Origin: Geobacteraceae bacterium GWC2_53_11
GTDB taxonomy: Bacteria > Desulfobacterota > Desulfuromonadia > Geobacterales > Pseudopelobacteraceae
Assembly (NCBI GenBank): GCA_001802645.1
Contig: MGZJ01000034.1
Location: 32,605-96,604 of the forward strand
Direction of reading: 5' to 3'
DNA length: 64,000 bases
Each line of letters starts with the position of its first letter. Positions within the stretch are counted from its first letter, which is position 1. The notes under the pieces were generated by a model. It saw nothing but the letters and a program-made list of their open reading frames with translations, did no database searches and was not told the origin of the DNA. Below, piece after piece: positions 38-33,181 of the stretch. A program made the position numbers and the translations under genes.

Positions 38-988
38 CTATGCCTGGCCGATACCCGACAGTCGCCACAGATTGTTGCCGACCGGCCTGGTAAATGTCCA
101 GAACTCCTCAAACTTGACCGGCTCGCTCTTGCTGCCGGACACGACCGATCCGGTCAGCTCATCGGTTGTATAATCAAGCAGGTTTGCATAGATGGAAGCG
201 GTGATAAAATCCTGCCCGGTCTCCTGCCACACCTCGGCAACAGCTACTTTCCGGACGGCAATATTTTCAAGCCTGTTGATCTGTTTATCCTTCAGCAACA
301 GGTCCAGGTCCGCCTGGAATATTCGATTCATCTCATCGGTCAGCAAGCCTGAGACCGGCGACAGGTCGCGCCCCATCCAGGCTCCCTGGATTTTGAAAAA
401 ATTGTCCATCACCAGGTCGTTGAATCGGTTTTCATCAAAGGAATGATCATTTTGGCGGATATGGGCCAGGCCGGTCGCAACCTCATCACCTGCCGGTTCA
501 TTAATCTGCTGCACGCCGGAAAATGGAATTACCGTTCCTCCCTGATAAGCTCCCTGCCCGAAAGGAACTGCTTCACTGTCAGCGCGTTTCTTTTTGATGT
601 AGCGATAGATAAGATAGCCGCCGCCCGCCAGCAGGATGATGCCAAACAGGCCAATGCCACCCCCGCCCGTGCCGCCAGCCGCTCCCGCGCCGGCTCCGGC
701 AAAGCTGCTGAAGAGCATGCTTCCCAGCATACCACCCGCAATTCCGCCGGCCATACTTCTCATGAAACCACCACCAGGCTGCTGAACCTGGCCTGGCGCA
801 GGCGCGGCCTGCTGCCGTGGTTGGCCGGACTGTGGTGAAGAGCTTGTCGGCCTGGAATAGCTGCGTGAGCCGCCGCCGGAAGAGCGGCTGCCACCGGCTC
901 TGGCGTGAGCGTTCAGTTCCAGCACGGTGATGCTTACAAACAGTACGGCTGCCATTATTGTTACTACTTTAACAACGTGTTTTTTCAT
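38..988 (-). CDS. Tim44-like domain membrane protein
   Basis: 316-residue protein of unknown exact role. An N-terminal hydrophobic segment (residues about 4-24, uncleaved anchor or signal peptide) is followed by an Arg/Ser/Pro/Gln-rich stretch (30-70), a Gly/Met/Ala-rich stretch (72-112), a second membrane segment (113-130) with a basic KKKR stop, and a Tim44-like domain (about 175-316), a fold known from the mitochondrial import motor and bacterial membrane proteins. I chose the start at 988 because AAGGAG lies just upstream; the open frame extends further but overlaps the preceding gene. It is the last gene of the riboswitch-controlled operon, 43 bp after the UPF0016 transporter. Its first 140 residues closely match the protein at 5910-6353, which lacks the Tim44 part. 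Domain call is fairly sure, function is not. Confidence 0.85.
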   Translation of the reverse strand: MKKHVVKVVTIMAAVLFVSITVLELNAHARAGGSRSSGGGSRSYSRPTSSSPQSGQPRQQAAPAPGQVQQPGGGFMRSMAGGIAGGMLGSMLFSSFAGAGAGAAGGTGGGGIGLFGIILLAGGGYLIYRYIKKKRADSEAVPFGQGAYQGGTVIPFSGVQQINEPAGDEVATGLAHIRQNDHSFDENRFNDLVMDNFFKIQGAWMGRDLSPVSGLLTDEMNRIFQADLDLLLKDKQINRLENIAVRKVAVAEVWQETGQDFITASIYANLLDYTTDELTGSVVSGSKSEPVKFEEFWTFTRPVGNNLWRLSGIGQA

Positions 989-1031: not shown

Positions 1032-1622
1032 CTACATCCCTTTAAGCTTCCAGAGAGCGGCAACACCAAACACCAGAAACATGAAGCCTGCGGTGCGATG
1101 AATCCAGCGGAGCGGAATGAAGCGAACCAGCTGTTTGCCGGCAAACATCCCCAGCAGGGCCACGCACCACAATGCCAGGGTGGACGACACAAAGACCATG
1201 CCCATTCCGGCCAGGCTGTCAGAGTGCTGGGCCGCCTGGCTGGCGGTCACCAGCTGGGTTTTGTCACCCAGTTCCGCCATGAAGATCATGATGAAAGCGG
1301 TGCGGGCGGCAGTGGCCGCGGTGGGCGGCGGCCCGTCTTCATCATCCTGGCTGTCACTGGCGTGCCGCAGGGTGCTATAACCAAAATAGAGAAAGAGCAG
1401 CGCCGAAACGAGTGTCACCCAGAAGATCGGCAGCAGCAGAAACAACACCTTGCCTACCACGACCGCAGCCAGATTAAGCACGACAAAAGCGGCCGCAATC
1501 CCGATAAAAATCTTCTGCCACGGGTAGCGTAATGCCAAGGCAATAGCGGTAAGCTGGGTCTTGTCGCCCAGCTCAGCCAGAAAAATCAATCCAAAGGTGC
1601 TGATAAAAATCGTTTGTTCCAT
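1032..1622 (-). CDS. UPF0016/GDT1 family Mn2+/Ca2+ transporter
   Basis: 196-residue integral membrane protein with the duplicated E-L-G-D-K-T-Q signature of the UPF0016 (TMEM165/GDT1/MneA) family at residues 17-23 and 117-123. Each copy sits at the start of a three-helix half, separated by an acidic cytoplasmic linker (about residues 89-100). Known members move manganese or calcium across membranes, and bacterial members are often Mn exporters controlled by yybP-ykoY riboswitches, which fits the leader found upstream of this operon at 8383-8521. Length is normal for bacterial members. It lies 36 bp downstream of the zinc-ribbon gene and 43 bp upstream of the Tim44-like gene. Family assignment is secure; Mn export as the direction is inferred from relatives and the riboswitch. 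Confidence 0.93.
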   Translation of the reverse strand: MEQTIFISTFGLIFLAELGDKTQLTAIALALRYPWQKIFIGIAAAFVVLNLAAVVVGKVLFLLLPIFWVTLVSALLFLYFGYSTLRHASDSQDDEDGPPPTAATAARTAFIMIFMAELGDKTQLVTASQAAQHSDSLAGMGMVFVSSTLALWCVALLGMFAGKQLVRFIPLRWIHRTAGFMFLVFGVAALWKLKGM

Positions 1623-1658: not shown

Positions 1659-1973
1659 TCAAAAATCGAACAGTTCACTTAACAACGATTTTTTCTTGTG
1701 CTGTCCGTAGTGACCGCCGCCGTGCTGCTGCTTGTAGCCATGATGATTATCATGACCCTGCTTCATGTGTGACGACGGATATTCCGGTTCGCGGTAGCGC
1801 GGCGGGGGAACATCAACCGGCTGCGGCACCGCCATTACGGCAGAACGCTCGATGATTTTGTCCAACTCCCCCCGATCCAGCCATACTCCCCGGCATTGCG
1901 GACAGTAGTCAATCTCGATTCCCTGGCGGTCAGACATCATCAGATCGGTTGTTGTGCATACAGGACATTTCAT
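1659..1973 (-). CDS. TFIIB-type zinc-ribbon protein
   Basis: 104-residue soluble protein with an N-terminal zf-TFIIB-like ribbon: Cys3-x2-Cys6 and Cys24-x2-Cys27, followed by the usual G-V-W-L-D-R-G-E-L segment (29-37). The C-terminal half is Pro/His/Gly-rich with several HH and HG pairs and ends in a basic KKKS stretch, which could bind additional metal. The start at 1973 has AAGGAG upstream; the longer open frame overlaps the TerC gene and is unlikely. Small proteins of this family occur widely and their function is poorly known. The position between TerC and UPF0016 genes in an operon with a Mn riboswitch suggests a metal-related role, but that is inference. Confidence 0.82.
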   Translation of the reverse strand: MKCPVCTTTDLMMSDRQGIEIDYCPQCRGVWLDRGELDKIIERSAVMAVPQPVDVPPPRYREPEYPSSHMKQGHDNHHGYKQQHGGGHYGQHKKKSLLSELFDF

Positions 1974-2007: not shown

Positions 2008-2952
2008 CTACGTGTTTTTAACAGGTGGGGTCTTTCGTGCGTGATTCCTTCCGATAACAAGCGAAGCGAGAACCGACATGGAAAGGCAGGTGAAGATCAC
2101 CAGTAGCGAGACCTGGATCGGAATGTGAAATCCCATGGCCGTCGCAATCATCTTTCCCCCTACGAACGCCAGAATCGATGATATGCCCAGCTTCAGATAG
2201 ACGAACATCCCCATGATGCTGGCCAGCAGAAAATAGAGCGCCCTGAGTCCCATAATGGCAAAGATGTTGGAGGTGAAGACAATGAACGGGTCAAGTGTCA
2301 CCGCAAATATGGCCGGGATCGAGTCGATGGCGAACAGCACGTCGCTGCTCTCGATCATCACCAATGCCAGAAACAGCGGGCTGGCTACCAGCAGGCCATT
2401 TCGGCGTTTGAAGAACCAGTCGCCGCGCACCCGTTTGGTGAACGGAAACAGCTTGCGGGCCAGCCTGACCAGCAGATTTTTATCCGGATGGACTTCTTCT
2501 TCCGCACCGAAGGCCATTTTCCAGGCGGTAAACAACAGCAGCGCGCCGAACAGGTAAAACAGCCAGTGGAAAGCCGTCAACAGTTCGATGCCGGTGAAGA
2601 TGAACAACGCGCGCAGAACCAGTGCGCCGATAATGCCCCACTTGAGGATCCGTGCCTGGTGTTCGCCGCGAATCTTGAAATAGTTGAAGATCATGATAAA
2701 AACAAACAGGTTATCGACCGACAGCGATTTCTCGATCACATAGCCGGTAAAAAACTCCAGCGCCTTGATCTTGCCGAGAAAGACATATATCCCGGCATTG
2801 AATGCCAGCGCCAGCGACACCCAAATGATGCTCCAGGTCAGCGCCTGGCGGAATGAGACTTCGTGAGCTTTGCGGTTCATGCCGAGATCGATCGCCAGCA
2901 TGATGACCATCAGCAGTGCAAAGGCTCCCCACATTAGTGATTGTTCCGACAT
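2008..2952 (-). CDS. TerC family membrane protein (Alx-like)
   Basis: 314-residue polytopic membrane protein of the TerC/Alx family, with about eight to nine hydrophobic segments and the conserved acidic membrane motifs S-V-D-N-L-F-V-F (about residues 79-86) and D-V-L-F-A-I-D-S (about 204-211). These Asp residues are the proposed metal-binding sites of the family. Escherichia coli Alx is controlled by a yybP-ykoY element and acts in Mn handling; other TerC proteins are linked to tellurite resistance and to metalation of exported enzymes. It overlaps the PGPGW gene by one base (TGATG), so translation is probably coupled. A second, shorter TerC paralogue is in the same operon (6396-7157). Confidence 0.92.
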   Translation of the reverse strand: MSEQSLMWGAFALLMVIMLAIDLGMNRKAHEVSFRQALTWSIIWVSLALAFNAGIYVFLGKIKALEFFTGYVIEKSLSVDNLFVFIMIFNYFKIRGEHQARILKWGIIGALVLRALFIFTGIELLTAFHWLFYLFGALLLFTAWKMAFGAEEEVHPDKNLLVRLARKLFPFTKRVRGDWFFKRRNGLLVASPLFLALVMIESSDVLFAIDSIPAIFAVTLDPFIVFTSNIFAIMGLRALYFLLASIMGMFVYLKLGISSILAFVGGKMIATAMGFHIPIQVSLLVIFTCLSMSVLASLVIGRNHARKTPPVKNT

Positions 2953-3176
2953 CAGTTCCCTTTCCTCATGCGTTCAAAGCGTTCTTTTACGGTCACCAGC
3001 AGTTTTCTGGCCCAGAGGAACTCCGTGGCCAGCAGCGCCAACCCAATCGGGATGACAACAATAGCCGGTCCCGGCAGCACGATCATGGCTAGTCCGGCTG
3101 CCAGGATCGTGAAGCCGATCACCGTAACGATCAGGCGTTTGGCCTGACCCAAAGTTTTAACGACAAAATGTTTCAT
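2952..3176 (-). CDS. PGPGW-family small membrane protein
   Basis: 74-residue membrane protein with two hydrophobic segments (about 15-35 and 39-56) joined by a turn containing L-P-G-P-A, the hallmark of the PGPGW family (the last part of the name motif is degenerate here). The C-terminus is strongly basic (KERFERMRKGN), so it is probably cytoplasmic. No biochemical function is known for the family. The gene follows UPF0182 by 28 bp and its stop overlaps the TerC start by one base, which indicates co-translation with TerC. It might be an accessory subunit of that protein; this is inference. Confidence 0.8.
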   Translation of the reverse strand: MKHFVVKTLGQAKRLIVTVIGFTILAAGLAMIVLPGPAIVVIPIGLALLATEFLWARKLLVTVKERFERMRKGN

Positions 3177-3204: not shown

Positions 3205-5880
3205 CTACTGTGCCATCCGCTTCAGGACCTGTTCCAGCTTGCGCAGTTCCTCGCCGTAACCGGCCCAGTTCCCCTGACGCTGCAAGGTGGTAGCCTTTTC
3301 ATAGATCCTCATCGCTTCCCTGGCCAGTGATGACGGTGATGTCTTCACAACGGACTCCGCCGTCGTGACGGCAGCCGAAACGGCTTTCCTGCCGCCAAAG
3401 AGCCGCTGCAGGGCAAGCTCCAGATTCTCCTCCATAACCACCTGATCGCCAAAGGCCACAATCACCCGTTTCAGTTCAGGCAAACCGTTTTTTTCGGCCG
3501 CCAGAAACAGCGGCTGCACGTAGAGCAGCGACTTCTCGATAGGAATCACGAGCAGGCTCCCTCGAATGACTTCCGAGCCGCGCTGGTTCCAGAGCGACAG
3601 TTGCTGGGATATGAAGGAATCCTGATTGATCCGGGCATCAATCTGTTTCGGGCCATAGATCAACCGGTCGCGCGGAAAAGTGTAGGCACGGATCTTCCCG
3701 TAATTTTCCCCGTCGCAGCGGGCCGTCAGCCATGCCGCCAGATTGTCCCGTTTGGACGGGGTAAAGGGGAGCAGCAAGATGTATTCCTCAACCTTCTCAC
3801 CCGGCAATCTCATGATCGTGTAATAGGGCTCCATCGCCTTTTCGCCGATGGCGGGGATCTCCCAGAGATTTTCTTTGTTGTAGAAGACCTTGGGATCGGT
3901 CATGTGATAGGCAGCAAACATGGCGGCCTGAACCTGAAGAAACTGATGCGGGTAGCGAATGTGCCTGCGCAAGTCCTCGGGCATGGCGGCCAGCGGCTTG
4001 AAAAATCCCGGAAACATGCGGGCATACACCTTTACCAGCACATCGTTCGGCTCGCTCACATAAAAGTTAACCGAGCCGTCGTAGGCGTCAACAACCGCCT
4101 TGACGGAATTCCGCATGTAATTGATTCCACCCTTGAGCGGCTTTGAATAGGGGAGGCGATCCGAATAGGTATAAGCGTCGATGATCCATTTGAGCCCCCC
4201 TTTTTCGTCAACTACCATGTACGGGTCGCCATCAAAACGGAGAAAGGGCGCGATCTCCCTGACCCGCTGGTTGATATTGCGGTTGTAGATGATGCGGCTC
4301 TCTGCGGTGATATCCGATGAAAGCAGAATTTTTTCGGTTCTGAAACTGGCGGCAAACAGTGCTTTTTTGAGCAATGAATCAATCGGCACCCCGCCTTTTC
4401 CGGCATAGGTGGTGTTGATATCACCGGTGGCGGTCGGGTAGCTGAATTCAGGTATTTTGGTCTTGACGACCACATAGTCGTTCGACAGCTCGCCGAAATA
4501 TATTTCCGGCCGGGTCACCTTGACATCAGCCAGGCTGACGGCCGGGATATCCTTGACAAAAAACTCCGGCAGCCCTTCCTTGCTGATCTTGCTGACCGGT
4601 CCGAAGGTGATGCCGTTGCCGTGGGTAAAGATCAGGCGCTCGTTGATCCAGTTCTTGCTCGGGAGATCGGCATAGGAAAGTTCGCGTGGCGACAGCATGA
4701 CCTGTGTATACTGACCGTTAACCTTGTAGCGGTCATTGTCCACATCGAAAAACTTGTAGTAGGTCCTGATCTGCTGCAACTGGCTGTAGGTTTTAAGCAG
4801 CGGGGCATGATCCCAGAGCCGGATGTTCTTGATGGTGGCATCATTGTTGGCAATATCAGCGGCTGACAGCTTTGTATCCACATCGAACGGCACGGTTTCT
4901 ATCTTTTCCAGATCATAGCCGAAACGGGTAAACTTGAGATTGTTCTCGATGTACGGTGTTTCAAGGGCAAGTTCGTTGGGTGCCACCTTGAATTTCTGCA
5001 GCACCCCCGGATAGACCCGGATGCCGATCACGTAGAGTGCTACTACGATGGCAGGCGGCAGCAGCGCGGCACGCCAGGTCCCTTTCCAGATGCCGACTGC
5101 CAGCATACACCCGGCAAGCGGCGTCAGGAACGTCAGCGCCCTGAACGTCAGCAGACGGGAATGCACATCCGCATATCCGGCGCCATAAAAAGAGCCGTTG
5201 CCGGCATACAGCAGCCGGAAACTGTCCAGATAGAAGCCTGCGGCAATTACGCAGGAAAAGAGCGCCGCCAGAACCGCCAGATGCCGACGTACCTTTTCGT
5301 CAACCGAGGCCCCCCGTTCGGTCAGCAGTATACCGCCGCGTACATAATACACGGCCCCGGCAAGAACGGTGGCCGCCAGCAGGATAAATCCGGCAAAACC
5401 TTTACAGATTTCCAGTAACGGCAGGCTGAACAGATAAAAGCCGATATCCTTGCCGATAACCGGGTCAACGGTACCCACATCCACCCGGTTCGCGAAGAGC
5501 AGCACCTCCTCCCAGCGCAAAGCGCCCCAGTTCCCTGCCAAAAGCGCCAATCCGGCAGAGATGAGCAGGGCAACCGGTTTTACCAGGCGAAGGGCATCAT
5601 CCCTCTGGATGCGGAAACTGCCTCCCCCCACGACGAACAGAGCGGAATAGGGAAACTGCGCCCTGTTCGCATACCACAGATTGATCATGACCACGGCGAA
5701 CAGCAGTGCCCCGAAGAGCACGCCTACCCCGAGTTTTGCAGACAGGGCCGTGGTAAAGACGGAGGTATAGCCGGTCTCCACAAAGAAGAGCCAGTCGGTG
5801 TAAAAATCAAGCAATGATGAAGCAAATGGCAGCAGTACTGCTGCGAGAACCAGAACCAGAACAAACCTGTTTTTAAACAT
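3205..5880 (-). CDS. UPF0182 family membrane protein
   Basis: 891-residue protein of the UPF0182 family. The N-terminal third (about residues 1-300) contains roughly seven hydrophobic segments, including the conserved start of the family with F-Y-T-D-W-L-F-F near residue 26. The remainder is a large soluble domain, presumably on the outer face, ending in a charged helical tail (about 845-891) with K-A-T-T-L-Q-R-Q-G-N-W resembling a tetratricopeptide-type helix. Length is normal for the family, which occurs in actinobacteria, cyanobacteria and Geobacter relatives and has no established function. Placement in a Mn-riboswitch operon between the glycine-rich membrane protein (29 bp) and PGPGW (28 bp) is the best clue to its job. 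Confidence 0.9.
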   Translation of the reverse strand: MFKNRFVLVLVLAAVLLPFASSLLDFYTDWLFFVETGYTSVFTTALSAKLGVGVLFGALLFAVVMINLWYANRAQFPYSALFVVGGGSFRIQRDDALRLVKPVALLISAGLALLAGNWGALRWEEVLLFANRVDVGTVDPVIGKDIGFYLFSLPLLEICKGFAGFILLAATVLAGAVYYVRGGILLTERGASVDEKVRRHLAVLAALFSCVIAAGFYLDSFRLLYAGNGSFYGAGYADVHSRLLTFRALTFLTPLAGCMLAVGIWKGTWRAALLPPAIVVALYVIGIRVYPGVLQKFKVAPNELALETPYIENNLKFTRFGYDLEKIETVPFDVDTKLSAADIANNDATIKNIRLWDHAPLLKTYSQLQQIRTYYKFFDVDNDRYKVNGQYTQVMLSPRELSYADLPSKNWINERLIFTHGNGITFGPVSKISKEGLPEFFVKDIPAVSLADVKVTRPEIYFGELSNDYVVVKTKIPEFSYPTATGDINTTYAGKGGVPIDSLLKKALFAASFRTEKILLSSDITAESRIIYNRNINQRVREIAPFLRFDGDPYMVVDEKGGLKWIIDAYTYSDRLPYSKPLKGGINYMRNSVKAVVDAYDGSVNFYVSEPNDVLVKVYARMFPGFFKPLAAMPEDLRRHIRYPHQFLQVQAAMFAAYHMTDPKVFYNKENLWEIPAIGEKAMEPYYTIMRLPGEKVEEYILLLPFTPSKRDNLAAWLTARCDGENYGKIRAYTFPRDRLIYGPKQIDARINQDSFISQQLSLWNQRGSEVIRGSLLVIPIEKSLLYVQPLFLAAEKNGLPELKRVIVAFGDQVVMEENLELALQRLFGGRKAVSAAVTTAESVVKTSPSSLAREAMRIYEKATTLQRQGNWAGYGEELRKLEQVLKRMAQ

Positions 5881-5909: not shown

Positions 5910-6353
5910 TCAACGACGATACGGATCAGAGGAACTTTCGGCTCTCTTTTTTTTCAGATACCGGTAAATCAGGTAGCCGCCACCGGCCAGAAGAATGATT
6001 TCAAACAGGCCGATACCACCGCCGCCGGCCATGCCGCCCATACCGCCGCCTGCTCCGGCCATACCGCTGAACAGCATGCTTCCCAGCATTCCACCCGCAA
6101 GTCCGCCGGCCATGCTTCTCATGAAACCGCCTCCGGCAGGCTGCTGAAAAGCACCCGGCGCAGGGGCGGCCTGCTGGCGCGGCGGTGGCTGATAGGAAGG
6201 AGCAGCGGCCGGGCGGGAGTAGCTGCGCGAGCCACGGCTCCCCATGGAGCGGCTGCCGCCGGCCCTTGCTTCGGCGTTGAGTTCCAGAACGGTAATGCTC
6301 ATAAACAAGACGGCGGCTAAAACGGTAAACACCTTAACAGCATGATTTTTCAT
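5910..6353 (-). CDS. Gly-rich membrane protein, short Tim44-like paralogue
   Basis: 147-residue protein that is nearly collinear with the first 140 residues of the Tim44-like protein at 38-988: the same N-terminal hydrophobic segment, the same Arg/Ser/Pro/Gln-rich linker, the same F-M-R-S-M-A-G-G stretch (78-84) and the same second membrane helix followed by Y-L-K-K-K-R (131-136). It stops shortly after that point, so the Tim44 domain is absent. The end is a clean stop codon, with no sign of a decayed domain in the 29 bp before UPF0182. A good Shine-Dalgarno sequence precedes the start at 6353. It may be a partner or regulator of the long paralogue by shared membrane contacts; function unknown. 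Confidence 0.8.
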   Translation of the reverse strand: MKNHAVKVFTVLAAVLFMSITVLELNAEARAGGSRSMGSRGSRSYSRPAAAPSYQPPPRQQAAPAPGAFQQPAGGGFMRSMAGGLAGGMLGSMLFSGMAGAGGGMGGMAGGGGIGLFEIILLAGGGYLIYRYLKKKRAESSSDPYRR

Positions 6354-6395: not shown

Positions 6396-7157
6396 CTACG
6401 GGTGCGATACGTCTTCAGCGTTTGCTTCACCATATTGATTGTGCAGCTTGACCGGCGTCCCCCGGCGCATGCGCAGGTTGAGCATCTCCACCAGCACCGA
6501 AAAGGCCATGGCAAAATAGATGTATCCTTTGGGTATGTGCATGTCGAGACCGTCACCGATGAGCGCCACGCCGATCATGAGCAGAAAGCTGAGCGCCAGC
6601 ATCTTGATGGTCGGGTGTTTTTCCACAAAGACACTGATCTTGCCCGAGAAGAGCATCATGAAGCCGACGGCAATGACGACCGCAGCAACCATGACGGCCA
6701 GCTGGCTGGCCATCCCGAGAGCGGTGATGATCGAATCGAGCGAAAAAACTATGTCCAGCAGCAGAATTTGGACAATTACCGCCCCGAAGGTGGCGCCTGC
6801 TCCGGTGACCGCATGCCCCTCCTCTCCTTCCAGCTTCTCGTGAATCTCCATGGTGCTTTTCCAGATCAGGAACAGACCACCGGAAAGAAGAATCAGGTCG
6901 CGACCGGAAATCTCGTTGCCCAGCACGGTAAACAGCGGGGACGTCAGCCCCATGAGCCAGGTCAGAGAGAAGAGCAGCGCGATGCGAATAAACATCGCCA
7001 GGCCGAGCCCGACCAGCCGGGCCTTTTCCTGCTGGTGAACCGGCAGTTTTCCTGCCTGGATCGAAATGAAGATGATGTTGTCGATGCCGAGTACGATTTC
7101 CAGCGCACTCAATGTTACCAGTGCCATCCAGACCTGCGGGTCAGTCAGCCATTCCAT
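6396..7157 (-). CDS. TerC family membrane protein (YgdQ/YoaE-like)
   Basis: 253-residue polytopic membrane protein of the short TerC branch typified by E. coli YgdQ and by the membrane half of YoaE; no CBS or CorC domain is attached. About seven hydrophobic segments are visible. Family acidic motifs are present: E-I-V-L-G-I-D-N (about 20-27) early on and D-I-V-F-S-L-D-S (about 134-141) in the middle. These are likely metal-binding positions. It lies 32 bp after the ribbon-helix-helix gene and 42 bp before the glycine-rich gene in the riboswitch operon. It differs clearly from the Alx-like TerC protein at 2008-2952, so the operon carries two TerC subfamilies. Confidence 0.9.
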   Translation of the reverse strand: MEWLTDPQVWMALVTLSALEIVLGIDNIIFISIQAGKLPVHQQEKARLVGLGLAMFIRIALLFSLTWLMGLTSPLFTVLGNEISGRDLILLSGGLFLIWKSTMEIHEKLEGEEGHAVTGAGATFGAVIVQILLLDIVFSLDSIITALGMASQLAVMVAAVVIAVGFMMLFSGKISVFVEKHPTIKMLALSFLLMIGVALIGDGLDMHIPKGYIYFAMAFSVLVEMLNLRMRRGTPVKLHNQYGEANAEDVSHP

Positions 7158-7189: not shown

Positions 7190-7411
7190 TTAATCCATAC
7201 ACAGCTTGCGGCGTTTGGAGCTCCACATATCAATCGCCTCTCGCATGATCTCGGAGATGCTTTTTGATGTGGACTTTGTCAGTTTTTCCAGCGCTTTCTT
7301 TTCTTCGTCATTTATGCGCAGTGAAATGACATTCTGCAACTGCTCAGTTTCTTTTCTTTTCTTTCTGGATGACTTCGGTTCCCTGCTAAAAAGTGTTCTT
7401 GTGTAAGACAT
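7190..7411 (-). CDS. Ribbon-helix-helix (CopG-like) protein
   Basis: 73-residue basic protein. After a Lys/Arg/Ser-rich arm (1-25) comes a likely beta strand N-V-I-S-L-R-I (27-33) and two helices, E-E-K-K-A-L-E-K-L and the S-I-S-E-I-M-R-E-A-I region (about 50-60), the pattern of ribbon-helix-helix DNA-binding proteins of the CopG/Arc/MetJ group. Such proteins act as dimeric repressors or antitoxins. No toxin gene is adjacent: the neighbours are HtpX (58 bp upstream) and TerC (32 bp downstream). It could be an autoregulator of the operon in addition to the riboswitch. Fold is likely, target unknown. Confidence 0.75.
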   Translation of the reverse strand: MSYTRTLFSREPKSSRKKRKETEQLQNVISLRINDEEKKALEKLTKSTSKSISEIMREAIDMWSSKRRKLCMD

Positions 7412-7469: not shown

Positions 7470-8336
7470 TCAGCGCATTCGTGCTGCCAGTTCCTGTAGT
7501 CGGGCGATGCGCTCCTCCATCGGCGGGTGGGTCGAGAAAAGCGCCATCATACCGCCGCCGGTCAGCGGATTGACGATAAACATATGGGCGGTGGCAGGCC
7601 GGGCATCCAGCATCGGAATCGCCTGCGATGCGGTGTGCAGCTTGCCCAGGGCGCCCGCCAGCGCCAGCGGCCGGCCGCATATTTCAGCTCCGGAAGCATC
7701 CGCAAGGTATTCGCGGGAGCGGGAGACCGCCATCTGAATCAGCATTGCGGCAATCGGTGCGATGATCGCCATGGCCAGCGAACCGACCATGCCGCCGATA
7801 CCGCCCCCCTCCTCATCATCTCCCCGGCCGGCGCCCAACATCGCGCCCCACTGCAGCATGCTGCCGATCATCGAGATGGCGCCGGCAAAGGTGGCGGCAA
7901 TCGTTGAAATCAGTATATCGCGATTTTTCACGTGAGCCAGTTCGTGGGCCATGACCCCTTCCAGCTCATCCGGCGTGAGGATGCGCAGAATTCCCTCGGT
8001 GGCAGCAACGGCGGCATGTTCGGGATTGCGGCCAGTGGCAAAGGCATTGGGGGAATCGTCCGGAATTATGTAGACCTTCGGCATCGGCAGCCCTGCCCGG
8101 CCGGCAAGACGTTCGATCATCCCGTAAAACGACGGGTGAATGTCGCGGGTAATTTCCCGGGCGTTGTACATTTTGAGGACGATCTTGTCGGAAAACCAGT
8201 AGGAGCCGAAGTTCATGACAGCGGCCATCAGAAAGGCGAACATCATGCCCCCCTTGCCGCCGACGGCGCCGCCCATGAAAACAAGCAGCATGGTAAGCAG
8301 GGAAAGAAGAAGTGTTGTTTTGAAGCGGTTCATCAT
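7470..8336 (-). CDS. htpX: Zinc metalloprotease HtpX homologue (M48B)
   Basis: 288-residue membrane-bound metalloprotease. Two N-terminal hydrophobic segments (about 7-27 and 31-47), the catalytic H-E-L-A-H at 131-135 within the M-A-H-E-L-A-H-V family motif, the third zinc ligand Glu209 in S-R-E-Y-L-A-D, and two further hydrophobic segments between them are all present, as is the C-terminal S-T-H-P-P-M-E-E-R motif. HtpX degrades damaged or misfolded cytoplasmic-membrane proteins. The start at 8336 has GGAGG nine bases upstream; an ATG one codon later is also possible. It is the first gene behind the yybP-ykoY riboswitch, which makes this protease a likely part of a manganese-responsive operon. 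Confidence 0.95.
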
Positions 8337-8382: not shown

Positions 8383-8425
8383 AAGACCTTTACCCACGGC
8401 GTACTGCGCATTGGATAAAGGTCTT
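8383..8425 (-). terminator. Intrinsic terminator of the riboswitch expression platform
   Basis: A 10-bp perfect stem is formed by 8416-8425 (5' arm in the transcript, AAGACCUUUA) and 8383-8392 (3' arm), followed by a U-rich run (UUUUUAUUU) in the minus-strand transcript. The 5' arm overlaps the 3' strand of the aptamer's closing helix (8415-8421), so terminator and ligand-bound aptamer cannot form together. This layout predicts that metal binding turns transcription on. Confidence 0.85.
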
Positions 8426-8521
8426 GCTTGCGATTGGTTATCGTTCCCTGTCCGAGTCTTGCGACTGTGTTGACGAACAAGGGATCAGCCATGTCTCCGG
8501 CTGATAGCTACTCCCCTTCAT
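8415..8521 (-). promoter_or_regulatory. yybP-ykoY (Mn2+) riboswitch aptamer
   Basis: The minus-strand transcript reads AUGAAGGGGAGUAGC (8521 down to 8507), then a short hairpin around GCCGGAGACAUGGC, then CUUGUUCGUCAACACAG, a second hairpin, and GAACGAUAACC before the closing strand CCUUUAU (8421-8415). GGGGAGUAGC, the GUUCGUCAACAC-type segment and CGAUAACC are hallmarks of the yybP-ykoY class, which senses Mn2+. The closing helix pairs 8515-8521 with 8415-8421 over seven base pairs. It lies directly ahead of the htpX-TerC-UPF0016 operon, the classic gene context for the class. Recognised by eye; a covariance-model search has not been run. Confidence 0.9.
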
Positions 8522-8530
8522 TGAGTTCTA

Positions 8531-8560
8531 ATAGTAGAGGAACTGTTCCCTGCCTGTCAA
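8531..8560 (-). promoter_or_regulatory. Sigma-70 promoter of the riboswitch operon
   Basis: On the minus strand a perfect -35 box TTGACA (8560-8555) is followed after 18 bp by TACTAT (8536-8531), a good -10 box. The predicted start near 8524 lies immediately before the riboswitch's first paired strand. The promoter sits just after the ccsB stop codon, so the operon is transcribed independently of the cytochrome maturation genes. Confidence 0.75.
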
Positions 8561-8568
8561 GTGGTTAT

Positions 8569-9423
8569 TTATTTGCCGCCGCCGTAGCTGTGCAGACCGG
8601 ACAGAAACAGGTTGACCCCCAGGTAGCAGAAGATGGTGGCGGCAAAGCCGACGATGGAAAGCCAGGCGGCGCGGCGGCCGACCCACCCCTTGGTGATGCG
8701 GGCGTGCAGAAAGGCGGCGTACACGAACCAGACGATCAGCGACCAGGTTTCTTTCGGGTCCCAGCTCCAGTAGGTGCCCCAGGCGTAGTTGGCCCAGGCG
8801 GCACCGGTGATGATGCCGAGCGTCAGCAGCGGAAAACCGACCATGATCGCCCGGTAGTTGAGGTCATCCAGTACCTTGATCGGAGGGAACATGCCCATGA
8901 TGCCTGCCTCGCCCGACTTGTGATCGCTCTCGTCATGATTGGCCTTGATCAGGTACATGATGGAGATGCCGCATGCCACGGCAAAAGCGGCGTAGCCGAG
9001 GAAACAAGTGATGACATGGTAGAGCAGCCAGTTGCTCTGCAGGGCCGGAACGAGCGGCTCAATGCCGGTGTTCAGTCCGAGCTGTGCCCAGGCCATGCCG
9101 AGCAGGGCAAAGGGCATGACAAAGGCGCCGATCACCCGGTACTTGTACTTGATGTCAAGCAGGGCGTAGATCAGCACGATGGTCCAGGAGAAGAACACCA
9201 CCGATTCATACAGGTTCGAGAGCGGGGCGTGCCCCACCCCCATGTCGTAGGATTCCTTCCAGCGCAGGCCGATAGCCACGGTCTGCGCCAGCAGGCCGCC
9301 GTAGGCAACGGCAATGGCGGCTGTGCCGAGCACCTTGGCGCGACCGGCCAGAAACACGAAAAACAGCAGCATGGAGATGAGATAGGCAAAGGTGGTTATA
9401 TTGAAAAGCAGTGAACTGGTCAT
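8569..9423 (-). CDS. ccsB: Cytochrome c biogenesis protein CcsB/ResC
   Basis: 284-residue integral membrane protein of the system II cytochrome c maturation family (CcsA/ResC/CcsB). It has about eight hydrophobic segments and the tryptophan-rich heme-handling motif W-G-T-Y-W-S-W-D-P-K-E-T-W (about 216-228), with conserved membrane-edge histidines, for example in L-L-Y-H-V-I-T (about 133-139). With ResB it forms the heme export and ligation complex that attaches heme to apocytochromes outside the cytoplasmic membrane. It overlaps resB by four bases (ATGA), so the two are translationally coupled. The cytochromes encoded just upstream are natural substrates. Confidence 0.95.
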   Translation of the reverse strand: MTSSLLFNITTFAYLISMLLFFVFLAGRAKVLGTAAIAVAYGGLLAQTVAIGLRWKESYDMGVGHAPLSNLYESVVFFSWTIVLIYALLDIKYKYRVIGAFVMPFALLGMAWAQLGLNTGIEPLVPALQSNWLLYHVITCFLGYAAFAVACGISIMYLIKANHDESDHKSGEAGIMGMFPPIKVLDDLNYRAIMVGFPLLTLGIITGAAWANYAWGTYWSWDPKETWSLIVWFVYAAFLHARITKGWVGRRAAWLSIVGFAATIFCYLGVNLFLSGLHSYGGGK

Positions 9424-30576: not shown

Positions 30577-31634
30577 ACATTCTCGTTATCGGCAAATTCT
30601 ATACTGAAGGCTTCGGACTGCACATAGCTGAAAACCTGGAAACTATGGGGCATACCGTCAGTCGATTCGAACCTGGTTATCGCTCCGACCGCATTGGAGG
30701 TTTAGTGGGGCACCGTATCGACCAGGCAGGAAGAGTCCTTCGGGGGATATCCGACAATCTGCCTGCCATGCGATCATGGCATCTGAGAAAGCTCTGGGAT
30801 TTAATAGAAAATTTGTCACTAGACCTTGTCATCGTTATCCATGATTTTCTCTGGCCGTCTGAGGTAGCGGAACTGAAACGGCGAAGTGAAGCACCTGTCG
30901 TTCTCTGGTTTCCTGATGCCTTGGTTAATTTTGGTCGAGGCTTTTTTATGAACGCCCCCTATGATGGTCTTTTTTTTAAGGATCCCTTTATAGTTGATCG
31001 TTTGAAAAATTTTCTCGACATTCCGGTATATTATCTTCCGGAATGTTTTAACCCGATGAAGCATAGCGCGGCAAATATTGATGAAAGCGAGCTTGCCTCT
31101 TACCGTTGTGATATTACATGTGCAGGGAATCAGCACTCATGGCGCGTTGCAATATTCAAACAATTGTCTGAATACAATGTAAAACTTTGGGGGCCGCCAC
31201 AACCACTGTGGCTTGACATTGCTCCAGTTACGAAAATGCATCAAGGGCGACCGGTGCACAACAGAGAGAAGACAAGCGCATTTAGAGCTGCAAAGATTGT
31301 CGTGAACAATCTGCATTATGGAGAAATATGGGGCGTAAACGTGCGAACTTTCGAGATTGCGGGAATCGGAGGCTTCCAAATGGTTGACTGGAGACCAGGA
31401 ATTGAGCCGCTTTTCAAAATAGGAAAGGAACTGATCTGCTTTCGCAGCATTTCCGATCTTAAACAGAAAATAGATTACTGGCTTCCCCGTGATGATGAGA
31501 GGCAGGAGATTGCGTTAGCGGGAATGCAACGGGCACATGCGGAGCACACCTACTCTCAGCGATTATCGTTATTGCTCGATACATTGGTTGGAAAAGAGTC
31601 TGGATACCCCCTTCCACTTGGCAGAGACGCATGA
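30573..31634 (+). CDS. CgeB-like glycosyltransferase
   Basis: 353-residue protein of the CgeB/Glyco_trans_1_2 type: N-terminal M-N-I-L-V-I-G-K, a Rossmann-like first half with L-V-I-V-I-H-D-F (about 84-91), then the characteristic C-terminal part with V-N-N-L-H-Y-G-E-I-W-G-V-N-V-R-T-F-E (about 245-262). In this family the second half contains the probable donor-binding glutamate. It is probably a GT-B-fold glycosyltransferase; members are annotated as spore maturation proteins in Bacillus but are common in surface glycan clusters. Overlaps both neighbours by four bases. Confidence 0.82.
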   Translation: MNILVIGKFYTEGFGLHIAENLETMGHTVSRFEPGYRSDRIGGLVGHRIDQAGRVLRGISDNLPAMRSWHLRKLWDLIENLSLDLVIVIHDFLWPSEVAELKRRSEAPVVLWFPDALVNFGRGFFMNAPYDGLFFKDPFIVDRLKNFLDIPVYYLPECFNPMKHSAANIDESELASYRCDITCAGNQHSWRVAIFKQLSEYNVKLWGPPQPLWLDIAPVTKMHQGRPVHNREKTSAFRAAKIVVNNLHYGEIWGVNVRTFEIAGIGGFQMVDWRPGIEPLFKIGKELICFRSISDLKQKIDYWLPRDDERQEIALAGMQRAHAEHTYSQRLSLLLDTLVGKESGYPLPLGRDA

Positions 31635-33181
31635 CCGACAATAATGCCTTGAGCACATCCAGTCGCAACAATTACACTCAGTCACCATCATCTCGAAAAC
31701 ATGCAACAACCATTTCTGAGTTGAGAGTTCTGGTTATATTGCTTTCGTTGATAATATGCTCCGTTTTGTCGATGCATTTGGTTACGAATTCACAGGGTTT
31801 TATAGCTTATACGCTTCTTCTGGCCGGGTACCTTGTTGCAGAGATCAGGAATATTTTCAAGCAGGATCCTTATCTTGCATGGATTAATCCTGCCGTATTT
31901 GCTTCTCTGGCTACCTTTATGCTGACTTTCGTATTTACAAACGTGCTCTATTTTATGCCCGACAACTTAGTCAGTCTCGTAGGCTTACAACCAGTCATAA
32001 CAGCTTGGATGAACCAGCTGATGTTTCTGGTACTGCTGGCAGCTTGCGCTATGTGGATTGGGTACAACTCTGTTGCAGGGAGAATAATTAGTCAGACTTT
32101 GCAAAAGAGTCGTCTGCTTCACTTGTGCATAGCACCTTCAGAAAACATCAATAAACGTGCAGTTATTGTCTTTATTATTATTAATTTAATTGCTCGCCTG
32201 TGGGCCATCAAACTTGGTTGGTATGGCTACTCTGCCTCCACAGAACTGCTTAGTTCAGGTGCAAACTTTACTGAATATTTCAATATTGCGGATTGGATCG
32301 GCAAACTTGTTTTGCTTGTCGTTGCTATTCACTATTTTTCTTTATCATACCCGATGGTAAGCGACCGAACACTTTTGTGGCTTATGCTTAGCTATCAAGT
32401 TGTTTTCGGACTCCTCTCTGGAATGAAGTCCGGAGTAGTAGTCCCGTTCATCATTGTCGCCATTGCTTATTACTGTCAAAAAAACCGTTTTCCTCTCTGG
32501 GTGGTTCCTGCCGTTGTTGCTTCGGTTTTTGCTGCATATACTGTTATTGAACCGTTCCGGGCTTCCCGTAATGAAAATGCTCACTTCTCAGGCAAAAGCC
32601 TTGGTAGCATTGTATCAACAATGACGAATGTAAATAAAATTAGCGAGTTTGAAAGCACCAAAGTCGCTCCAACTTGGTTGAGCGTGCTTGCACGACTTAA
32701 TCTTACCTACATCGCATCGTTAGGAATTGAGTATGCGGCAAACAACAAACTGCCAGATGACAGACCCCATTTCTTACGCAATATTCTACTAGCGCCCGCA
32801 CATGCGATTGTGCCGAGATTTTTATGGAATGAAAAACCTCTCCAGCAAGATGGGCTTTGGTATACAAAAAGAGTTCTGGGAGTTGATGTTTTCAGTGCAA
32901 CGGCCATGAGTCCGTTTACCTATCTTAATTTTGCCGGTGGGCCATTGGCAGTGATCCTGGGCTTTTTATTTGTGGGGATTATCCAACGGGGGCTGTTTGA
33001 CGGCCTGCGAAGTTTTGGTACTGGCGGGCTTATAGTTTTTTTAGGGTTGTTAAGCACTATTGGCACTATCGACAATTCATTCAACACGGTTATTATTGGA
33101 ATCATCAGGTATTTTCCAATGCTGATCGTTGCACAATATGTGCTAATGCAACATCCAAATAAGAGCTTTCATGAAAAATAG
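31631..33181 (+). CDS. wzy: Wzy-like oligosaccharide repeat-unit polymerase
   Basis: 516-residue membrane protein with about twelve hydrophobic segments and a large extracytoplasmic loop (about 295-420), the usual shape of Wzy polymerases. Sequence motifs are weak, as always for this family; R-N-E-N-A-H-F and P-R-F-L-W-N-E-K-P (about 398-406) are typical polar loop elements. It would polymerise undecaprenyl-linked units flipped by the Wzx protein at 25303-26832. Starts within the previous stop (ATGA) and overlaps the next gene by 11 bp. Assigned by topology and context. Confidence 0.82.
   Translation: MTDNNALSTSSRNNYTQSPSSRKHATTISELRVLVILLSLIICSVLSMHLVTNSQGFIAYTLLLAGYLVAEIRNIFKQDPYLAWINPAVFASLATFMLTFVFTNVLYFMPDNLVSLVGLQPVITAWMNQLMFLVLLAACAMWIGYNSVAGRIISQTLQKSRLLHLCIAPSENINKRAVIVFIIINLIARLWAIKLGWYGYSASTELLSSGANFTEYFNIADWIGKLVLLVVAIHYFSLSYPMVSDRTLLWLMLSYQVVFGLLSGMKSGVVVPFIIVAIAYYCQKNRFPLWVVPAVVASVFAAYTVIEPFRASRNENAHFSGKSLGSIVSTMTNVNKISEFESTKVAPTWLSVLARLNLTYIASLGIEYAANNKLPDDRPHFLRNILLAPAHAIVPRFLWNEKPLQQDGLWYTKRVLGVDVFSATAMSPFTYLNFAGGPLAVILGFLFVGIIQRGLFDGLRSFGTGGLIVFLGLLSTIGTIDNSFNTVIIGIIRYFPMLIVAQYVLMQHPNKSFHEK

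Follow-up and report, generated by a model that had tools for sequence, protein, structure and literature searches.

The htpX-led operon of Geobacteraceae bacterium GWC2_53_11 is probably governed by a Mn riboswitch of the yybP-ykoY family that acts as an ON switch by antitermination, and whose leader carries a conserved second layer of alternative pairings, B:C and C:D, downstream of the terminator. In the window (the whole 64,000-nucleotide stretch of DNA that was analysed), promoter, aptamer, terminator and, at 8336, the start codon of htpX follow one another along the minus strand downward from 8560:

8560-8555 and 8536-8531, minus strand: sigma-70-like promoter, TTGACA and TACTAT, 18-nt spacer, 10/12 matches
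8523-8413, minus strand: Mn2+ (yybP-ykoY) aptamer with P1.1, P1.2, P2, P3.1, L3, P3.2 and P4
8520-8515 and 8421-8416, minus strand: helix P1.1, UGAAGG/CCUUUA, the closing helix of the aptamer
8516-8507, minus strand: aptamer motif GGGGAGUAGC
inside 8478-8467, minus strand: aptamer motif GUUCGUCAACAC
8512, minus strand: putative A-minor adenosine, equivalent to A10 (residue role from PMC6754395)
8471, minus strand: candidate Mn-ligand adenosine, equivalent to A41 of L. lactis (residue role from PMC6754395)
8425-8379, minus strand: intrinsic terminator, with 5' arm (strand A) AAGACCUUUAUCC at 8425-8413, 3' arm GGGUAAAGGUCUU at 8395-8383 and U-run at 8384-8379
8401-8389, minus strand: strand B, CGCCGUGGGUAAA, terminator 3' arm, with strand C as alternative partner
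8377-8366, minus strand: strand C, UUUACCCCGGCG, just 3' of the U-run and complementary to both B and D
8355-8344, minus strand: strand D, UCGUCGGAGGUA, including the htpX Shine-Dalgarno GGAGG at 8350-8346

An earlier note on this DNA had proposed the TTGACA/TACTAT promoter, and both boxes are where it placed them. Promoter-like sites are about as frequent in 2 kb as expected (1 vs 0.9), so that the promoter score, being near chance, says little by itself. The site lies directly 3' of the stop codon of a cytochrome c biogenesis-like gene (8569-9423) and ends just ahead of the aptamer, a placement consistent with a transcription start near 8524. The leader folds far better than its shuffles (z -4.95), and a BLASTN search against plasmids gave no match.

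The genes downstream form a run of ten on the same strand with spacing below 60 bases (two start codons were re-read from the open reading frames):

7470-8336, minus strand: htpX, M48 membrane metalloprotease, first gene (NF002826, 405 bits, cut-off 369)
7190-7411, minus strand: ribbon-helix-helix protein (PF01402)
6396-7157, minus strand: TerC family membrane protein (PF03741, 1.1e-45)
5910-6353, minus strand: glycine-rich small membrane protein without family match, resembling the N-terminal part of the Tim44-like protein at 38-988
3205-5880, minus strand: UPF0182 large membrane protein (PF03699)
2952-3176, minus strand: PGPGW small membrane protein (PF09656)
2008-2952, minus strand: Alx-type TerC protein (TIGR03718 R_switched_Alx, above cut-off)
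1659-1973, minus strand: Zn-ribbon (TFIIB-type) small protein (PF13453; start codon taken from the open reading frame)
1032-1622, minus strand: GDT1/UPF0016 cation exporter, MneA type (PF01169, 5.8e-43)
38-988, minus strand: Tim44-like membrane protein, last of the tight run (PF04280; start codon taken from the open reading frame)

No convincing internal terminator was found within the run, and the ten-gene operon proposed earlier is supported by the spacing, the gene content and the homologues. Proteins of the glycine-rich type recur in these operons. A gene for a CNNM/CorC-type membrane protein (L224 6031-7338, contig C34 ~31030-32337) lies on the same strand about 300 bases past the run, with no terminator-like site in between, and the operon may extend past the tenth gene. 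By profile matches, the aptamer stands upstream of Mn-export/TerC genes, here two TerC proteins and GDT1. Of 62 copies in relatives, 37 have htpX as their first operon-type gene and 21 have terC, and in the remaining ones another gene of the operon comes first; outside Desulfobacterota, pattern-matched riboswitches head genes for GDT1 or TerC rather than htpX. A published finding agrees well with this gene content: in B. subtilis, TerC proteins at the translocon co-purify with HtpX and FtsH, and loss of two TerC proteins makes FtsH, another membrane protease, essential (PMC10550928).

The aptamer has the canonical four-way junction with helices P1-P4 in 40 distinct aligned Geobacterales sequences, and RNAalifold, unaided, predicts the same helices. 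On the named structure 96.6% of pairing cells are paired, double-sided changes are seen in 19 of the 31 pairs, P1.2 alternates between C-G (27 sequences) and U-A (13), and the covariation score was reached by none of 500 shuffles. The conserved L1 (GGGGAGUAG / CAAGACC) is found in this alignment, the invariant blocks of which are AGGGGAGUAG, CGUCAA, CGG and CAAGACCUUUA; L3 UCA(A) with the Mn-ligand A, together with A10, is invariant in 40/40 sequences. In the L. lactis aptamer, N7 of A41 is a Mn2+ ligand and A10 is the L1 adenosine (PMC6754395), to which, on our reading of the aligned motifs, the window adenosines at 8471 and 8512 would correspond. The motifs GGGGAGUAGC and GUUCGUCAACAC, already picked out for the aptamer in the earlier note, are in place; the third that it named, CGAUAACC, is part of the variable P4 hairpin and no family signature. 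One aptamer copy (L088 806-1021) has an additional hairpin of ~40 nt within P3.2, beyond the metal site.

An Rfam yybP-ykoY match, the check suggested for this element, turned out negative for RF00080: the window holds no match at the gathering score (45 bits), a permissive Rfam cmscan (E<=10, 321 bases) returned chance microRNA/sRNA matches with RF00080 absent, the genome as a whole gave sub-threshold noise only, and none of 58 relatives rose above the cut-off. DNA similarity, on the other hand, finds the element in 51 of the 58 relatives, in nine genera and often in several copies. RF00080 gives E. coli mntP 40.9 bits, under the model's own 45-bit cut-off, and E. coli alx no match at E<=1 (the shortfall is seen at L101 374-470 and L102 1873-2002); because it underscores mntP and misses alx, a failed gathering score is weak evidence. 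The RF00080 consensus is without P1 pairs and has the P4 region paired across to the terminator, and for lack of P1 Mn riboswitch clades are probably under-annotated. On this evidence the fault lies more probably with the model than with the RNA, the 45-bit score being a database threshold and not a defining biological feature.

We also worked in the reverse direction, with a covariance model (R1) made from the alignment of the 40 Geobacterales aptamers. R1 matches the E. coli leaders of alx (32.2 bits, E 2.5e-5) and mntP (30.9 bits, E 5.5e-5) at full length and 5' of the start codon, detects a Bacillus Mn riboswitch with an E-value of 2.4e-12, and matches Bacillus and Betaproteobacteria loci, these too at full length, at the same places as RF00080. 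These matches to proven Mn riboswitches, the invariant ligand residues and the Mn-export genes make it very improbable that the leader is some other structured element with chance similarity and no Mn riboswitch, as the failure of RF00080 in all 58 relatives might suggest. The earlier assignment to the yybP-ykoY family is upheld by homologues, covariation, the reciprocal covariance-model search and gene content, and membership among the Mn riboswitches is settled as far as sequence allows; from the invariance of the ligand-site residues and the presence of Mn-export genes we infer that the RNA binds Mn2+. One relative (G039) carries three Geobacterales-type copies beside a Mn riboswitch of a different, E. 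coli/Betaproteobacteria-like type (L004 1493-1643; RF00080 33 bits, R1 32.7 bits). Aptamers on Desulfobacula and Desulfobulbus contigs (L121, L134, L181) score 109-118 bits with the Geobacterales model, which suggests that close relatives occur, or transfer has taken place, beyond the order.

As the earlier note had claimed with correct coordinates, the terminator overlaps the closing helix of the aptamer: CCUUUA (8421-8416) is both the 3' strand of P1 and a section of the terminator 5' arm. Strand A (AAGACCUUUA) is thus common to aptamer P1.1/L1 and the terminator, every extracted or aligned copy keeps a strand-A-based terminator, and unconstrained folding of the leader gives the terminator. 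In L. lactis, Mn has been shown to stabilise P1.1 and so to block the overlapping terminator (PMC11087558), and the same anatomy implies a Mn-induced ON switch here; with the GDT1 exporter and both TerC proteins among the genes of the operon, Mn-induced antitermination is the right reading. Mn2+ at the L1/L3 interface would stabilise the closing helix P1.1, which would hold strand A, block the A:B terminator and allow read-through into htpX and nine further genes. The logic of a metal-ON switch, put forward earlier, finds support in homologues, covariation, reciprocal search and gene content, with Mn2+ as the presumed ligand.

Sound in its main line, the earlier reading was incomplete, since it went no further than 8383 and so did not include the conserved strands that lie at 8377-8344. 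Comparison of the copies gives good support to the view that most htpX-led copies conserve B:C and C:D, whereas terC-led ones all but lack them. The B:C duplex is stronger than with shuffled C (p<=0.05) in 34/37 htpX-led vs 1/21 terC-led copies, and C:D shows the same contrast. As isolated hairpins, B:C and C:D average -18.0 and -13.0 kcal/mol in htpX-led copies and -4.9 and -2.9 kcal/mol in terC-led copies; B:C is the stabler in 34 of the 37 htpX-led copies (-18.6 vs -16.3 in the window, where each helix has one bulge). Since column covariation of B:C in the MAFFT alignment is affected by shifts around indels, a partner-permutation test was used instead. None of 2000 permutations paired as well as the own partners for B:C (0/2000 also in a diverse subset) or for C:D (2/2000 in the diverse subset), a test in which shared ancestry remains. 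Loci that were not used to form the idea bear it out in part: B:C is present in 7/13 and C:D in 6/13 htpX-led copies, compared with 0/11 of those led by terC. At L065, L066, L071, L079, L082 and L088, B:C is kept and C:D lost or weakened, and in some htpX-led copies (L191, L206, L230, L233) both are absent. An antisense terminator as the reason for the B:C palindrome was ruled out, the opposite strand having no U-run after the palindrome.

We propose that the four strands make up a single chain of neighbour pairings, A:B (the terminator), B:C and C:D, by which termination would be coupled to translation. In read-through RNA, strand C would have two possible partners, arm B once it is freed and the Shine-Dalgarno region D. 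With Mn, B:C would form as soon as C emerges and hold C off the Shine-Dalgarno during its synthesis; without Mn, A:B would hold B, C:D would form, and the few leaked transcripts would stay untranslated. Growing-transcript folding of the window with P1 absent gives A:B and then C:D only. With P1 forced, as a stand-in for bound Mn, B:C is predicted from about +12 to +33 nt past the U-run and lasts until the Shine-Dalgarno is nearly complete, at which point the equilibrium moves to C:D; P1-forced folding of L005 and L079 retains B:C. At full-leader equilibrium, forcing P1 fails to expose the Shine-Dalgarno in all 37 copies led by htpX (mean unpaired 0.21 with and without forcing), and because it is paired in both states, a Mn-responsive second gate must be kinetic, with ribosomes loading on nascent RNA. 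On these models, a Mn-dependent choice between B:C and C:D has about an even chance of being real. More tentatively, and at slightly less than an even chance, the leader may be a four-strand relay in which the terminator 3' arm serves as an anti-anti-Shine-Dalgarno and one Mn2+ decision sets termination and then htpX translation, terC-led copies using termination alone.

The pairing of the Shine-Dalgarno in both equilibrium states, together with the similarity in sequence of strands B and D, would also suit a Mn riboswitch that acts on transcription only, with C as part of a fixed Shine-Dalgarno hairpin that lowers htpX translation and the match to B as a by-product of the B/D resemblance. We consider this unlikely, given that copies without C:D keep B:C by compensatory changes (L065 GCUGCGGG/CCGCAG, L079 GCCGAGGG/CCCUCGGC, L088) and that own-partner B:C beats all 2000 permutations. 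Retention of B:C where C:D is lost could instead reflect a hairpin that has no part in translation control but stabilises the read-through mRNA or takes part in its processing; this is distinctly unlikely, as it leaves unexplained why C:D is conserved in most htpX-led copies. HtpX is a heat-shock-type membrane protease, and C:D, which sequesters the Shine-Dalgarno of the protease gene and is largely missing before terC, might be an RNA thermometer independent of the Mn switch. This seems less likely still because C:D is very stable, reaching -24 to -27 kcal/mol in several lineages (L052, L080), unlike a thermometer that melts, and the conserved B:C would be left without explanation.

The reading that we prefer, antitermination by Mn with a second layer of pairings, can be set beside known systems. 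E. coli alx and mntP have the same aptamer core, which R1 aligns end to end, and alx is a TerC relative; their known control acts chiefly at translation and does not involve this terminator, and to our knowledge neither stands at the head of an htpX operon. The L. lactis yybP-ykoY riboswitch shares the four-way junction, L1/L3, a P1.1 3' strand within the terminator and the ON logic, whereas a downstream B:C/C:D layer is not described in the passages of PMC11087558 consulted. The B. subtilis tlrB (yxjB) leader likewise has, 3' of a terminator, a hairpin that sequesters the Shine-Dalgarno and keeps read-through RNA silent, but it is controlled by a stalled ribosome and not by a ligand aptamer, and an overlapping antiterminator was not identified there (PMC6851288). 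Dual regulation of transcription and translation, described as rare, is also found in the c-di-GMP riboswitch Bc1, which differs in being incoherent and in having two terminators and another ligand (PMC11218506). A search of the open-access literature, outside which most subscription papers lie, brought up no other Mn riboswitch that is arranged in this way.

Aptamer and terminator alone would be a further member of a known family; the value of the finding lies in a clade missed by the library, the pairing of htpX with TerC and the conserved second layer. With the usual Rfam cut-off, a whole Geobacterales clade of Mn riboswitches is passed over. In the present operon htpX would come under Mn control alongside two TerC proteins, which is independent support, from genome content, for the idea that Mn export and exoenzyme metalation are linked to the quality control of membrane proteins. 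If the relay is true, a single riboswitch would curb leak-through by an added translational gate, and the natural terC-led copies would serve as built-in controls.
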